NCBI GenBank assembly: GCA_902798685.1
Contig: CADBXO010000021.1
Coordinates: 1 to 54,088 of the forward strand
Origin: an uncultured Bacteroidales bacterium
GTDB lineage: Bacteria > Bacteroidota > Bacteroidia > Bacteroidales > Bacteroidaceae
Length of the DNA stretch: 54,088 nt
Reading direction: 5' to 3'
Below, piece by piece: positions 27,570 through 33,018 of this stretch. The position numbers and the translations under genes were made by a program. Below the pieces are notes generated by a model. That model searched no databases and was not told the DNA's origin. It worked only from the letters and a program-made list of their open reading frames with translations. The stretch's first letter is position 1; each line of letters opens with the position of its first letter.

Positions 27570-28752
27570 TTATACGTTGTAAGCGGTCTCTCCGTGCTCG
27601 TAGATATCCAGACCTTCCTCCTCAACTCTGGGAGCAACGCGGATTCCATGAACCTTCTTAAGGATTACGAATGTGAGCAGACCAAGTCCGAATGACCATG
27701 CGCATGTTACCAGTGAGCCAAGTGCCTCAACACCCAGGAAGTGCCAGCCGCCACCGTAGAACAGGCCACCGTCCATTGCAAACATACCGGTCATGAGTGT
27801 ACCAAGGATACCGCAAACTCCGTGAACAGATACTGCACCAACGGGATCATCAATCTTGCAGACCTTATCAATCAGGGCAACTGAACCAACCATTGCAACA
27901 CCGCAAACAGCGCCGATGATTGCTGCACCGCCTATTGATACAAGGTCGCAACCTGCTGTGATACCTACCAGACCTGCCAGGATCAAGACCGCCGGTAGCA
28001 GCAGCCATGTTGGTTGTGCACATTACGTGTGAGATAGCGATTGCGTTCTCAGCACCTTCAGCAGCCAGCTGTGAACCGGGGTTGAAACCGAACCAACCGA
28101 ACCAGAGCAGGAATACGCCCAGAGCGCCGAAGGTCAGGTTGTGGCCGGGGATAGCGCGTGACTCACCGGTCTTTGAATACTTACCGATACGGGGACCAAG
28201 AACCATGGCACCTGCAAGAGCAATCACACCACCGCAAGAGTGAACAACGGTTGAACCTGCAAAATCATGGAAACCAAGCTCTGAGAGCCAGCCGCCACCC
28301 CAGGTCCAGTGACCCTCGATAGGATAGATTACAACTGAAATGATGATTGAAATAAGTACGTACATTGAGAACTTGGTTCTCTCAGCCATACCACCTGATA
28401 CTATTGTAGCGGCGGTAGCGCAGAATACGGTTTGGAATATCAGGGTGCACTCAGCGGGAACGTTTGAGTCACCAATGAATGACCAGTCAAAAAGGTGAAG
28501 TCCACCAATGAAACCGTTGTTGGCTCCGTGCATAAGGCCGAAACCTATCATCCAGAACAGGAACGAACCTACCATGAAGTCAACGAAGTTCTTCATGAGG
28601 ATGTTGGCGGTGTTCTTGGAGCGGGTAAAGCCGGCCTCAACCAGGGCGAAACCAGGCTGCATAAAGAACACCAGCATAGCTGCTATCAATACCCAGACTG
28701 TATCCAGTCCGCTTATACTACTTTCACTTACTGTTGTGATAATGTCTTCCAT
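27570..28752 (-). pseudogene. amtB: ammonium transporter amtB, frameshifted
   Basis: From 28752 the frame encodes a normal Amt/Rh transporter up to TNMAAATGG near residue 255. It includes MVLGP, the ammonium-gate region and the His of GSTVVHSCGG. It then leaves frame at about 27985. The rest (ILAGLVGITAGCD to the end, 137 residues) continues one base out of register. Family members usually have about 25-28 residues between these two parts (a Trp/Lys-rich helix and a KPDLSMxLNG turn) that are absent here. So a deletion of roughly 75-85 bases that is not a multiple of three has occurred, or the assembly is wrong. All other conserved parts look intact. Confidence 0.85.
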
Positions 28753-28773: not shown

Positions 28774-29121
28774 TTACTTCTTGTCGGCCAACACTGTATC
28801 ACCGTGTTCTCCGGTACGGATTGACCATGTGTCATCCACGGGACTTACAAAGATTCGTCCATCACCCACCTGACCGGTACGGGCTGCACCCATGATGGCG
28901 TCGATGGCGGGCTGTACGAACTGATCACGGCAGATGATCGTTATCTCAATACGTGAGATGATGTCCGTGCTGTACATAACGCCACGGTAGATTCGATCCT
29001 GACGGTCCTGGCCGATTGCATGAACTTCAGCATACGAGAACCAGTTGATGTCAGCCTCAAAAAGTGCTTCCTTGACATCTTCAAACCGGGTTTTCCGGAT
29101 GATTGCTTCAATTTTTTTCAT
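28774..29121 (-). CDS. P-II nitrogen regulatory protein
   Basis: The 115-residue protein is a P-II (GlnB/GlnK) trimer subunit: MKKIEAIIRKTRFEDVK at the start, the T-loop IYRGVMYSTDI with Tyr50 at the place of the uridylylated Tyr51 of E. coli, and the C-terminal GDGRIFVSPVDDTWSIRTGE nucleotide site. It senses ATP/ADP and 2-oxoglutarate and gates AmtB. It lies 21 bases before amtB, the usual GlnK arrangement. Expression must pass the terminator in the leader at 29166-29200. Confidence 0.93.
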   Translation of the reverse strand: MKKIEAIIRKTRFEDVKEALFEADINWFSYAEVHAIGQDRQDRIYRGVMYSTDIISRIEITIICRDQFVQPAIDAIMGAARTGQVGDGRIFVSPVDDTWSIRTGEHGDTVLADKK

Positions 29122-29165: not shown

Positions 29166-29200
29166 AAAAAAAAAGACTGATCAATTAATGACCAGTCTTT
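29166..29200 (-). terminator. intrinsic terminator in the P-II/amtB leader
   Basis: On the minus strand AAAGACTG (29200-29193) pairs with CAGTCTTT (29179-29172), and the stem extends by a G-U and three more pairs. A run of nine U ends at 29166. The hairpin lies 45 bases before the P-II start codon and after the leader frame. Confidence 0.85.
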
Positions 29201-29248
29201 ATATTGAACTCTCTATTTATCTACGATGTTTAGCTTACCTGCTGGTCA
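29189..29248 (-). promoter_or_regulatory. predicted antiterminator pairing
   Basis: TGACCAG in the leader frame (minus strand 29248-29242, codons 34-36) is exactly complementary to CTGGTCA in the terminator 5' arm (29195-29189). The two structures exclude each other. A ribosome at the stop codon would cover the first segment; one stalled at the Gln/Asn codons would leave it free. Confidence 0.6.
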
Positions 29249-29349
29249 AAAAGTATAGCCATCGGAACCTGATTATTCTGGTTCTGATTATTCTGCTGCT
29301 GGTTATTATTCAGCTGAACAGTGGTTATATTTTTAAGACCGATAAACAT
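29230..29349 (-). CDS. 39-residue Gln/Asn-rich leader peptide of the P-II/amtB operon
   Basis: The frame runs from ATG at 29349 to TAA at 29230. Residues 12-27 read QLNNNQQQNNQNQNNQ, and the whole peptide has nine Gln and nine Asn among 39. It begins about 30 bases after a consensus -7 box and stops 30 bases before an intrinsic terminator, ahead of genes for ammonium sensing and uptake. The arrangement is that of leader peptides in amino-acid attenuators (compare trpL or hisL), here with codons for glutamine and asparagine. Translation is not shown, and I know of no described example with this specificity. Confidence 0.7.
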   Translation of the reverse strand: MFIGLKNITTVQLNNNQQQNNQNQNNQVPMAILFDQQVS

Positions 29350-29380
29350 AAAATCTGTCTGTTGTTTCTGATTTCTGCTG

Positions 29381-29388
29381 CAAAGGTA
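29381..29388 (-). promoter_or_regulatory. -7 box TACCTTTG of the P-II/amtB leader
   Basis: The minus strand reads TACCTTTG, a full consensus match. Transcription would start near 29376, giving a leader of about 255 bases before the P-II start. Confidence 0.65.
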
Positions 29389-29490
29389 AGTACTATTTTG
29401 ATACATTGTTCACCAAAACTGCAAAAATCTTACTTATTTCTTGAAAAATTTCCAAATTCCTTACAAATAGAAAGTGAATCTATCAAAATA

Positions 29491-31119
<1,629 letters not shown>

Positions 31120-32964
31120 CTATTCTACTGTAACAGATTTTGCAAGGTTACGGGGCTGGTCTACGTCACGCCCCTTGGCAATGGCAATGTGGTATGCAAG
31201 GAGCTGCAGAGGTATCACTGAAAGCAGCGGAACCAGGCACTCCTCGGTATCAGGAATCTCAAAGTAATAGTCAGAGATGTTGCGCACATCAGTGTCACCC
31301 TCGGTAATGATGCTTATTACCCTGCCCTTACGCGCCTTCACCTCCTGGATATTACTCAGTATCTTGTCATAATGACCGCGTTTGGGAGCAATCACTACAA
31401 CCGGCATCTCCTCATCAATAAGGGCAATCGGACCGTGTTTCATCTCGGCTGCGGGATAACCCTCGGCATGTATGTATGATATCTCCTTGAGCTTGAGGGC
31501 ACCCTCAAGTGCAATCGGATAGTTATATCCGCGGCCCAGGTAGATAAAGTTATGAGCGTATGTGAATGTCTTGGCAAGTTCTGCAATCTGCTTATCGTGC
31601 CCCAGAATCTTCTCAATCTTGGCAGGTATGTTAGGCAGCTCCTTGATTATGCTCTGACGCTGCTCAGGTGATACGGTTCCCTTCTCCTGGGCAATGTTCA
31701 ATGCAAGCAGCAGCAATGTCTCAACCTGTGCGGTAAAGGCCTTGGTCGATGCCACACCGATCTCAGGACCGGCATGTGTGTAGCAGCCCGTATCGGCCTC
31801 ACGTGCAATTGACGAGCCTACTACGTTACATATTCCAAAGAGGAATGCGCCTGACTCCTTGGCCAATTTCATGGCTGCCAGGGTATCGGCCGTCTCACCG
31901 GACTGTGATATTGCAATCACCACGTCATCGGGATAGATCACGGGATTGCGGTAACGGAACTCTGATGAGTATTCAACCTCAACCGGCAGACGTGTAAGGT
32001 CCTCTATAAGATATTTGCCGATAAGCGCTGCGTGCCATGAGGTACCGCAGGCGCAGATTATGATTCTGCGTGCCGCCATCAGACGTTTCTTATGATCGAT
32101 GACACCGGACAGCTTGACTATTCCCAGTTCGGGATGCAGACGGCCGTTCATTACGGTGCGTGTGGTATCGGGCTGCTCGTGAATCTCCTTGAGCATGAAA
32201 TGCGGGAATCCGCCCTTCTCAATCTGGCTCAGGTTCATCTCAAGTTTCTTGACAACCGCGGTCTGCTCAATGCTGCGAAGGTCAGTTATCCTAACCTCCT
32301 TACCGCGTTCCAGGAACGCAATCTGCTCCTCACCAAGGTAGATTACACGGTCAGTATACTCGACTATGGGAGTGGCATCGGAACCTATCAGGAACTCGCC
32401 GTCACCTACACCTATTATAAGAGGACTACCCTTACGGGCTGCAATCATGCGGTCGGGCTGGGTCTTGTCCACGATAACGATGGCGTATGCGCCTATCACG
32501 CTGTTCAGGGCCAACGGAACGGCCTCCTCAAGGGAGATGTTGTGAGAATCCATTATGTACTGGATAAGCTGTATCACAACTTCAGTATCGGTCTCACTCT
32601 TAAAATGGTATCCCTGGTTCTGCAGCTCTTTCTTGAGCGAACGGAAATTCTCAATGATTCCGTTGTGTATCAGAGCCAGATTTCCTGATTCCGAGAAATG
32701 CGGATGGGCGTTGACATCGTTAGGTTCTCCGTGAGTTGCCCAACGGGTATGTGCTATGCCGACGCATCCGCTCAGGTCCTTACCCTCGACGGCGTGCTCC
32801 AGATCGGCAACCTTACCTTTTGTCTTGTAAATGACCAGGTCACCGCCGTCATTTATAAGTGCCACACCGGCGCTGTCATAACCGCGATACTCAAGTCTTG
32901 ACAGTCCTTTAATCAAAATAGGATAAGCCTGACGCTTACCGATATAACCTACAATTCCGCACAT
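31120..32964 (-). CDS. glmS: glutamine-fructose-6-phosphate aminotransferase
   Basis: The 614-residue protein begins MCGIVGYIGKRQAYPIL with Cys2 as the amidotransferase nucleophile, followed by HTRWATHGEPNDVNAHPH. Two SIS domains come after about residue 285 (CGTSWHAALIGKY, SQSGETADTLAA) and the C-terminus ends in DQPRNLAKSVTVE, as in GlmS. It makes glucosamine-6-phosphate from fructose-6-phosphate and glutamine for wall and LPS synthesis. A terminator lies 12 bases before its start codon and a promoter 127 bases before it, so its expression appears to depend on read-through. Confidence 0.97.
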   Translation of the reverse strand: MCGIVGYIGKRQAYPILIKGLSRLEYRGYDSAGVALINDGGDLVIYKTKGKVADLEHAVEGKDLSGCVGIAHTRWATHGEPNDVNAHPHFSESGNLALIHNGIIENFRSLKKELQNQGYHFKSETDTEVVIQLIQYIMDSHNISLEEAVPLALNSVIGAYAIVIVDKTQPDRMIAARKGSPLIIGVGDGEFLIGSDATPIVEYTDRVIYLGEEQIAFLERGKEVRITDLRSIEQTAVVKKLEMNLSQIEKGGFPHFMLKEIHEQPDTTRTVMNGRLHPELGIVKLSGVIDHKKRLMAARRIIICACGTSWHAALIGKYLIEDLTRLPVEVEYSSEFRYRNPVIYPDDVVIAISQSGETADTLAAMKLAKESGAFLFGICNVVGSSIAREADTGCYTHAGPEIGVASTKAFTAQVETLLLLALNIAQEKGTVSPEQRQSIIKELPNIPAKIEKILGHDKQIAELAKTFTYAHNFIYLGRGYNYPIALEGALKLKEISYIHAEGYPAAEMKHGPIALIDEEMPVVVIAPKRGHYDKILSNIQEVKARKGRVISIITEGDTDVRNISDYYFEIPDTEECLVPLLSVIPLQLLAYHIAIAKGRDVDQPRNLAKSVTVE

Positions 32965-32976
32965 AAATATATCCTT

Positions 32977-33018
32977 AAAAAAGGAGGAAGGCTGGTCCTG
33001 CTTGAACCAGCCTTCCTC
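32977..33018 (-). terminator. intrinsic terminator in the glmS leader
   Basis: GAGGAAGGCTGGT (minus 33018-33006) pairs exactly over 13 bases with ACCAGCCTTCCTC (32996-32984), followed by C and six U. It leaves only 12 bases before the glmS ATG, too little for a separate promoter. Confidence 0.85.

Follow-up and report, generated by a model that had tools for sequence, protein, structure and literature searches.

A putative glutamine/asparagine leader-peptide attenuator before glnK-amtB and other glutamine genes in an uncultured Bacteroidales bacterium and its relatives

The glnK-amtB operon of an uncultured Bacteroidales bacterium is probably preceded by a ribosome-mediated transcription attenuator, in which a leader peptide rich in glutamine and asparagine would report how much charged tRNA-Gln and tRNA-Asn is available. 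With both amino acids plentiful, a ribosome would reach the stop codon of the leader and cover an RNA segment within its last codons (segment 2), a terminator would form and transcription would end; when they are scarce, the ribosome would stall in the Gln/Asn run, leaving segment 2 free to capture the 5′ arm of the terminator, and RNA polymerase would read through into the genes for ammonium sensing and uptake. The initial annotation of this DNA had proposed such a mechanism, and comparison with related genomes supports that reading, the function itself being predicted from sequence. Leaders of the same design stand before other genes whose products provide or consume the sensed amino acid, and we put at somewhat better than even the chance that the glutamine economy of these bacteria (glnK-amtB, glnN, gltB, asnB, glmS and pyrG, with purF in a single genome) is run by a family of Gln/Asn attenuators in place of a dedicated transcription factor, every member reading the charging of tRNA-Gln and tRNA-Asn through one interchangeable RNA switch.

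The leader locus

All elements of the locus lie on the minus strand of the window, the whole 54,088-nucleotide stretch that was analysed. A −7 box of the TAnnTTTG type (TACCTTTG; 29381..29388) stands 31 nt ahead of the start of a 39-codon leader ORF (29230..29349; ATG at 29349, TAA ending at 29230), whose peptide, MFIGLKNITTVQLNNNQQQNNQNQNNQVPMAILFDQQVS, contains nine Gln and nine Asn. Codons 12–27 (29269..29316), all Gln or Asn bar one Leu, form the proposed sensor, and the end of this run is spanned by a hairpin (GAACC...GGUUC; 29265..29284), here called hairpin A, whose letters are near-invariant in an alignment of 32 chosen leaders (A2) and which is a possible pause or protector hairpin. 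Near the end of the leader, codons 34–36 carry segment 2 (UGACCAG; 29242..29248), the 5′ strand of the antiterminator. Its complement CUGGUCA (segment 3; 29195-29189) is the 5′ arm of a terminator hairpin (29173..29199; −14.3 kcal/mol) with a U tract read from the sequence at 29166..29174. The first structural gene encodes P-II (glnK; 28774..29121), matched by NCBIfam P-II models with a best E of 1.4e-23 at scores that fall under the models' curated cut-offs, and is followed by amtB, which occupies two overlapping frames in the assembly (27570..28752; Pfam Ammonium_transp on the longer frame). These frames run over 27868-28752 and 27570-27986; at three related loci (L169, L171, L172) amtB has one frame, of 414–425 codons. 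Directly upstream of the leader lies pyrG, encoding CTP synthase (29491..31104; TIGR00337, 769 bits), and upstream of that, on the same strand, glmS (31120..32964; TIGR01135, 834 bits), itself preceded by a hairpin (32986..33016) with a CUGGUU arm as in the leader terminator.

The initial annotation had placed correctly every element that it listed, from the box and the ORF to the P-II start codon, which lies at 29121, and a recount of the 39-codon frame, its Gln and Asn residues and the composition of residues 12–27 agrees with it. The complementarity on which it had built its model, between TGACCAG (29248-29242) and CTGGTCA (29195-29189), is present at those sites, and the duplex beats 199/200 shuffles. 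A chance low-complexity frame was rejected: 15 of the 16 codons of the run encode Gln or Asn, compared with at most 9 in any other 16-codon stretch of the window (six frames) and maxima of 6–8 in 20 first-order Markov copies of it. The predicted fold of the leader RNA is likewise better than that of 200/200 shuffles (z −3.66).

An in-frame ATG at 29406 would extend the leader to 58 codons. This ATG precedes the TACCTTTG box, and the MYQN start that resembles it is in frame at just 7/22 loci in the genus, so it cannot be the general start and was rejected. A TAnnTTTG motif, which we take to be the −7 box, is found no more than 100 nt ahead of the leader start codon in 59/69 leaders, most copies starting 20–45 nt upstream, compared with a mean of 5.4 and a maximum of 12 in mononucleotide shuffles. 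Inspection by eye revealed no clean −33 box upstream of the window leader at the spacing usual for Bacteroides promoters. Such a recurrent box, together with leaders that elsewhere precede asnB, glmS, gltB or an outer-membrane-protein gene and glnK, makes it scarcely credible that the terminator merely ends the pyrG transcript and that the Gln/Asn frame is low-complexity DNA, a reading suggested by the position of pyrG directly upstream in the window.

Leaders before glnK and asnB in relatives

P-II was matched in 22 of the 37 genomes searched from the window's genus (g1), and a Gln/Asn leader was found in 22/22 of these. In 21 it sits directly upstream of P-II; the remaining genome (G015) has an outer-membrane-protein-like gene between the leader and P-II. 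A Gln/Asn frame followed by a terminator ahead of P-II in relatives, which the initial annotation had expected of a genuine attenuator, therefore occurs throughout these genus genomes and also in three other genera. Beyond the genus, Gln/Asn leaders were found in g30 (L024, from Bacteroidales bacterium UBA1189, L104 and L105), in g22 (L106-L110) and in a Bacteroidales MAG from horse faeces (L027). At L106, L109 and L110 the leader lies further upstream of P-II, consistent with a position before the first gene of the operon. A weaker leader-like frame in a member of the Salinivirgaceae (L026), with 10 Gln/Asn by reading, keeps the segment 2 and terminator motif. The named loci L028-L103 gave no convincing leader match, and no leader was found within ~3 kb either side of P-II at the named Prevotella P-II loci.

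Fifteen of the 37 g1 genomes had no P-II match, and 12 of these 15 also had no purF hit over cut-off; among the 15, leader hits at E<1e-7 came only from G003 and G029. The group may represent a separate lineage or incomplete genomes. In G019 (L022/L023) an in-frame TAA interrupts P-II and a TGA falls within the match to the asnB query, although the leaders are present.

Of the 22 genus genomes with a match to the asnB query, 20 have a second, distinct leader built to the same plan ahead of asnB; the frame is intact in 18 of these leaders and broken in two (L193 in G000, L195 in G033). In several genomes asnB is followed by glnN and gltB. No asnB leader was found in G011, where one leader may serve both P-II and asnB, to judge from coordinates, because asnB follows P-II at a distance of 1.35 kb, which leaves room for amtB between them.

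A wider set of probable target genes

A covariance model built from 32 leaders (R1) and run on the 37 genus genomes gave 62 matches at E<1e-7: 22 before glnK (G015 included), 20 before asnB, 13 before glmS, five before pyrG, one before purF and one at a contig edge. All but the last (61/62) precede glutamine or nitrogen genes, and the contig-edge match has a glnK-type peptide. Target identities came from the P-II and asnB searches, from translated gene starts and from NCBIfam and Pfam models applied to examples; in the wider family search described below, three loci (L306, L316 and L317) have no assigned target. As a general target purF was rejected, a leader being present at 1/24 purF loci. 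Fifteen weaker R1 regions (E 1e-7 to 0.01), together with L224-L227, were scanned for a hairpin with a CTGG arm and a T run; only L260 and L263 were positive, and both have a CTGG-type hairpin with a T run yet no Gln/Asn ORF. No leader is present at L248 (E 3.9e-6). Some of the weak R1 rows are antisense to known leaders.

A second model, built from 33 leaders (R2) and run on 399 genomes of the family at E<1e-5, hit 52 genomes, 49 of them in four genera (22 in g1, 15 in g15, six in g22 and six in g30). The three remaining hits (g2, g14 and g21) are terminator-like with no Gln/Asn ORF, and were set aside. In g22 the leaders include five before gltB (L311-L314 and L323; the gene at L311 was tested with profile models), and in g30 one precedes glnN (L315, GSIII_N match) and one asnB (L318, profile match). 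Inspection of every g15 genome that was hit (15 in all) showed that 15 of their 16 loci precede P-II. The exception, L306 in G209, has a Gln/Asn leader and a CUGGUU hairpin with no clear U tract, and its next gene starts MSMNIKLTELTDSRDSVNKWMERYGVRFG. A second subfamily of leaders (L127, L231-L247 and L315-L317) opens with a YNCLSNQMNDKQN- or NCLFNKMNDKLN-like sequence; in g1 it comprises the glmS leaders and most of those before pyrG, and in g30 those before asnB and glnN.

An order-wide search of 393 genomes recovered, besides the window's own genome, leader ORFs in two genomes of one other family by filter; 15 of the 17 matched genomes other than its own had no Gln/Asn ORF by the same filter. 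The leader ORFs of the other family are Asn-rich with Arg or Lys, and precede amtB (L336 and L351; the L336 amtB scores over the TIGR00836 cut-off) and a glnN-like gene (L334). Being Gln-poor, they imply that sensing does not always involve Gln. The targets overall are glnK, asnB, glmS, pyrG, gltB, glnN, amtB and one purF, all connected with providing or consuming the sensed amino acid. The initial annotation had tied the device to glnK-amtB; the leader does precede that operon, but across relatives the same device apparently governs a wider glutamine-economy regulon.

Pairing of the terminator and antiterminator

Segment 2 has an RCCRG core complementary to the CUGGU arm of the terminator. 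In 50 of 52 leaders (asnB_L195 was left out) their duplex beats at least 193/200 dinucleotide shuffles of the leader tail; the exceptions are L021 and L027, for which 24/200 and 27/200 shuffles, respectively, were as good. Segment 2 starts 16–19 nt before the stop codon in 51/52 leaders, though peptide and codon register vary, and a terminating ribosome should therefore cover it. In g15 it lies around or just past the stop, still inside the ribosome footprint. The codon registers in which it is read differ among leaders (GAC CAG, GAC CGG and GGC CAG; ACC AGT and GCC AGT), which indicates that the RNA and not the peptide is conserved.

An intrinsic terminator lies between the leader and the first structural gene, with an antiterminator competing for its 5′ arm. 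Covarying stems, which the initial annotation had named as evidence that would favour its model, were found for the first of these structures but not for the second. In an alignment of 48 distinct leader rows (A1, without asnB_L195 and glnK_L027), 99.8% of 528 terminator cells are paired, and five pairs changed on both sides point to covariation; in a second alignment of 33 chosen leaders (A3), 98.9% are paired and six pairs changed on both sides. The five-pair core of the antiterminator is formed in 48/48 rows of A1, where some AU pairs have become GU, by invariance and not by covariation, and in A3 three of its five pairs fail in 1–3 of the 33 rows; the failing rows include pyrG leaders with UCCAG as well as one shifted row. 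Antiterminator covariation did not exceed the shuffle controls in A1 or A3; over nine pairs the A3 antiterminator is 77.4% paired, slightly under its shuffles, and isolated two-sided changes (L021, L024 and purF_L249 among them) do not amount to covariation support.

The terminators of the genus glnK and asnB leaders end in clean U tracts, which argues against the leader controlling translation or Rho-dependent termination. Such control, at least before glmS and in g15, would suit the several hairpins there whose U tract is weak, displaced or not clean, and the ending of the glmS hairpin near the start codon; we consider it highly improbable.

Folding and the position of the ribosome

Ribosome positions were modelled by masking the RNA to 12 nt past the A site, and the RNA was folded as it would be before the 3′ arm of the terminator exists, in 50 leaders for the pairing of segments 2 and 3, P(2:3), and in 91 for sequestration of the terminator arm (L193, L195 and L027 were left out of both). 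With the ribosome at the stop codon P(2:3) is 0.00 in 50/50 leaders, a value set by the mask covering segment 2 and so not independent support. With the ribosome just past the run it is high in most leaders, including most of those before glnK and asnB in the genus; with the ribosome inside the run it is variable, with low values for most leaders of g22 and many of those before asnB.

Between the last Gln/Asn codon and the stop, arm sequestration drops by >0.3 in 63/91 leaders. The leaders with no such drop are 9/12 from g15, 4/4 before gltB, 7/13 before glmS, 5/30 before glnK, 1/5 before pyrG, one of the two unassigned g30 leaders and the sole amtB leader. Mean arm sequestration at the last Gln/Asn codon exceeds that of shuffles before glnK (0.88 versus 0.64), asnB (0.93 versus 0.67) and pyrG (0.79 versus 0.65), and lies below it before glmS (0.48 versus 0.61), in g15 (0.62 versus 0.75) and before gltB (0.38 versus 0.61). 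Folding agrees with the two alternative states envisaged by the initial annotation for most genus glnK and asnB leaders, and is weak evidence for glmS, gltB and g15. The anatomy appears to be that of the trp and his attenuators, with comparative support that is good for glnK and asnB and weaker for glmS, gltB and g15.

Without a ribosome, segment 2 is predicted to pair with a 5′ partner near codons 3–5, at P 0.47 in the window and 0.47–0.99 in seven picked genus glnK leaders; this places a tentative segment 1 (AUCGGUC) at 29337..29343. The CTGTTCA proposed for this role by the initial annotation is present at 29321-29315, but is not the best-predicted partner of TGACCAG. Across 15 picked leaders the predicted P of this protector pairing (1:2) without a ribosome is 0.20–0.99, and in 7/50 leaders (L004, L022, L104, L184, L185, L127 and L128) the antiterminator is favoured in that state, at P 0.61–1.00. 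Hairpin A is predicted to form without a ribosome at P 1.0 in 11, and 0.77 in one, of 12 picked leaders with the GAACC/GGUU pair.

Selection on the leader peptide and codon usage

The leader frames are under purifying selection, with pN/pS values of 0.44 for 19 glnK leaders of the genus, 0.66 for 18 asnB leaders and 0.13 for six glmS leaders (the glnK set omits L013, L021, L022 and leaders from outside the genus, the asnB set omits L193, L195, L127 and L128, and the glmS set was limited to these six). These values and the promoter-like boxes are indirect signs that the leaders may be transcribed and translated. Selection of this kind would also be expected of a functional small Gln/Asn-rich protein, with the hairpin as an internal terminator that merely raises its expression over that of the operon. 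Between operons and genera, however, the peptides are alike only in composition, and the complementarity of segment 2 to the terminator arm and its distance from the stop would go unexplained, which makes a small protein very unlikely.

An arrest peptide, in which the nascent leader would sense a small molecule (e.g. free glutamine) in the ribosome tunnel instead of tRNA charge, would fit the conservation within the genus of residues outside the run, the low pN/pS before glmS, and the recurrence of the YNCLSNQMNDKQN-like subfamily at two targets in g1 (glmS and pyrG) and two in g30 (asnB and glnN); this conserved subfamily leaves a residual doubt. Against it, Gln/Asn richness is what persists across genera and operons while C-terminal residues differ, unlike the conserved stall-site peptide of arrest peptides of the TnaC or SecM type, and Gln and Asn swap for each other along the run. 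We judge an arrest peptide unlikely, and favour a leader that reports tRNA charge. GlnRS was found over cut-off in 8/8 genomes tested, which makes direct charging of tRNA-Gln likely. Among Asn codons, AAT outnumbers AAC by 404 to 94 in 53 leaders, compared with 112 to 318 in 11 window genes (Fisher p 1e-66, a value inflated by the relatedness of the leaders), and AAC is near-invariant inside hairpin A.

Leaders in the window's own genome

In the genome from which the window comes, the leader before glnK is intact. The asnB leader of that genome (L193; G000:C5, ~60946-61098, minus strand) has a Gln/Asn run without an in-frame start codon and an opening shorter than in L188, L189 and L192. Upstream of its glmS, the Gln/Asn leader of relatives was not found, though the hairpin with the CUGGUU arm (32986-33016) remains. 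The asnB and glmS leaders of this genome look damaged, as would follow from assembly error or decay.

Comparison with known systems

In Prevotella ruminicola 23, transcripts of glnK, amtB, asnB, glnN and gltBD change ~27–69 fold with ammonium; in the accessible part of that report the direction of the response is inconsistently stated and no transcriptional regulator is named (PMC5552732). A tRNA-charge attenuator repeated across ammonium-responsive genes would be a testable mechanism for related gut bacteria. Within the same phylum, the same general mechanism has been proposed from indications that leader peptides attenuate amino-acid operons in Flavobacterium psychrophilum (PMC9723704) and from leader-like sORFs in Bacteroides thetaiotaomicron (PMC7366714). 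The accessible parts of these two reports describe no Gln/Asn leader and name none of the present target genes, and the main text on B. thetaiotaomicron, as far as accessible, mentions neither amtB, glutamine nor nitrogen (PMC7366714). Our literature search, which covered little subscription content, found no Gln/Asn leader before these genes. We know of no earlier Gln/Asn-specific leader-peptide regulon.

Glutamine riboswitches (the glnA RNA and the Downstream-peptide motif) bind glutamine through a structured aptamer. They resemble the present device in placing nitrogen genes under cis-acting RNA control by glutamine status. A glutamine riboswitch, a T-box or another Rfam RNA was rejected here, since nothing in the window reached a gathering score; five leader loci compared with Rfam gave two matches, far under gathering score.

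The closest likeness is to the trp, his, leu and ilv attenuators, which combine a leader ORF loaded with regulatory codons, mutually exclusive antiterminator and terminator structures, and downstream genes that replenish the amino acid. The window device likewise has a leader ORF loaded with regulatory codons, a competing antiterminator and terminator, and related downstream genes. Unlike those systems, it uses Gln together with Asn, its segment 2 lies within the last codons of the leader, and it recurs on many nitrogen and glutamine operons, including those for transport and P-II. If this reading is true, attenuation would reach beyond single biosynthetic operons and act on a whole physiological regulon, the first Gln/Asn-specific one known to us.
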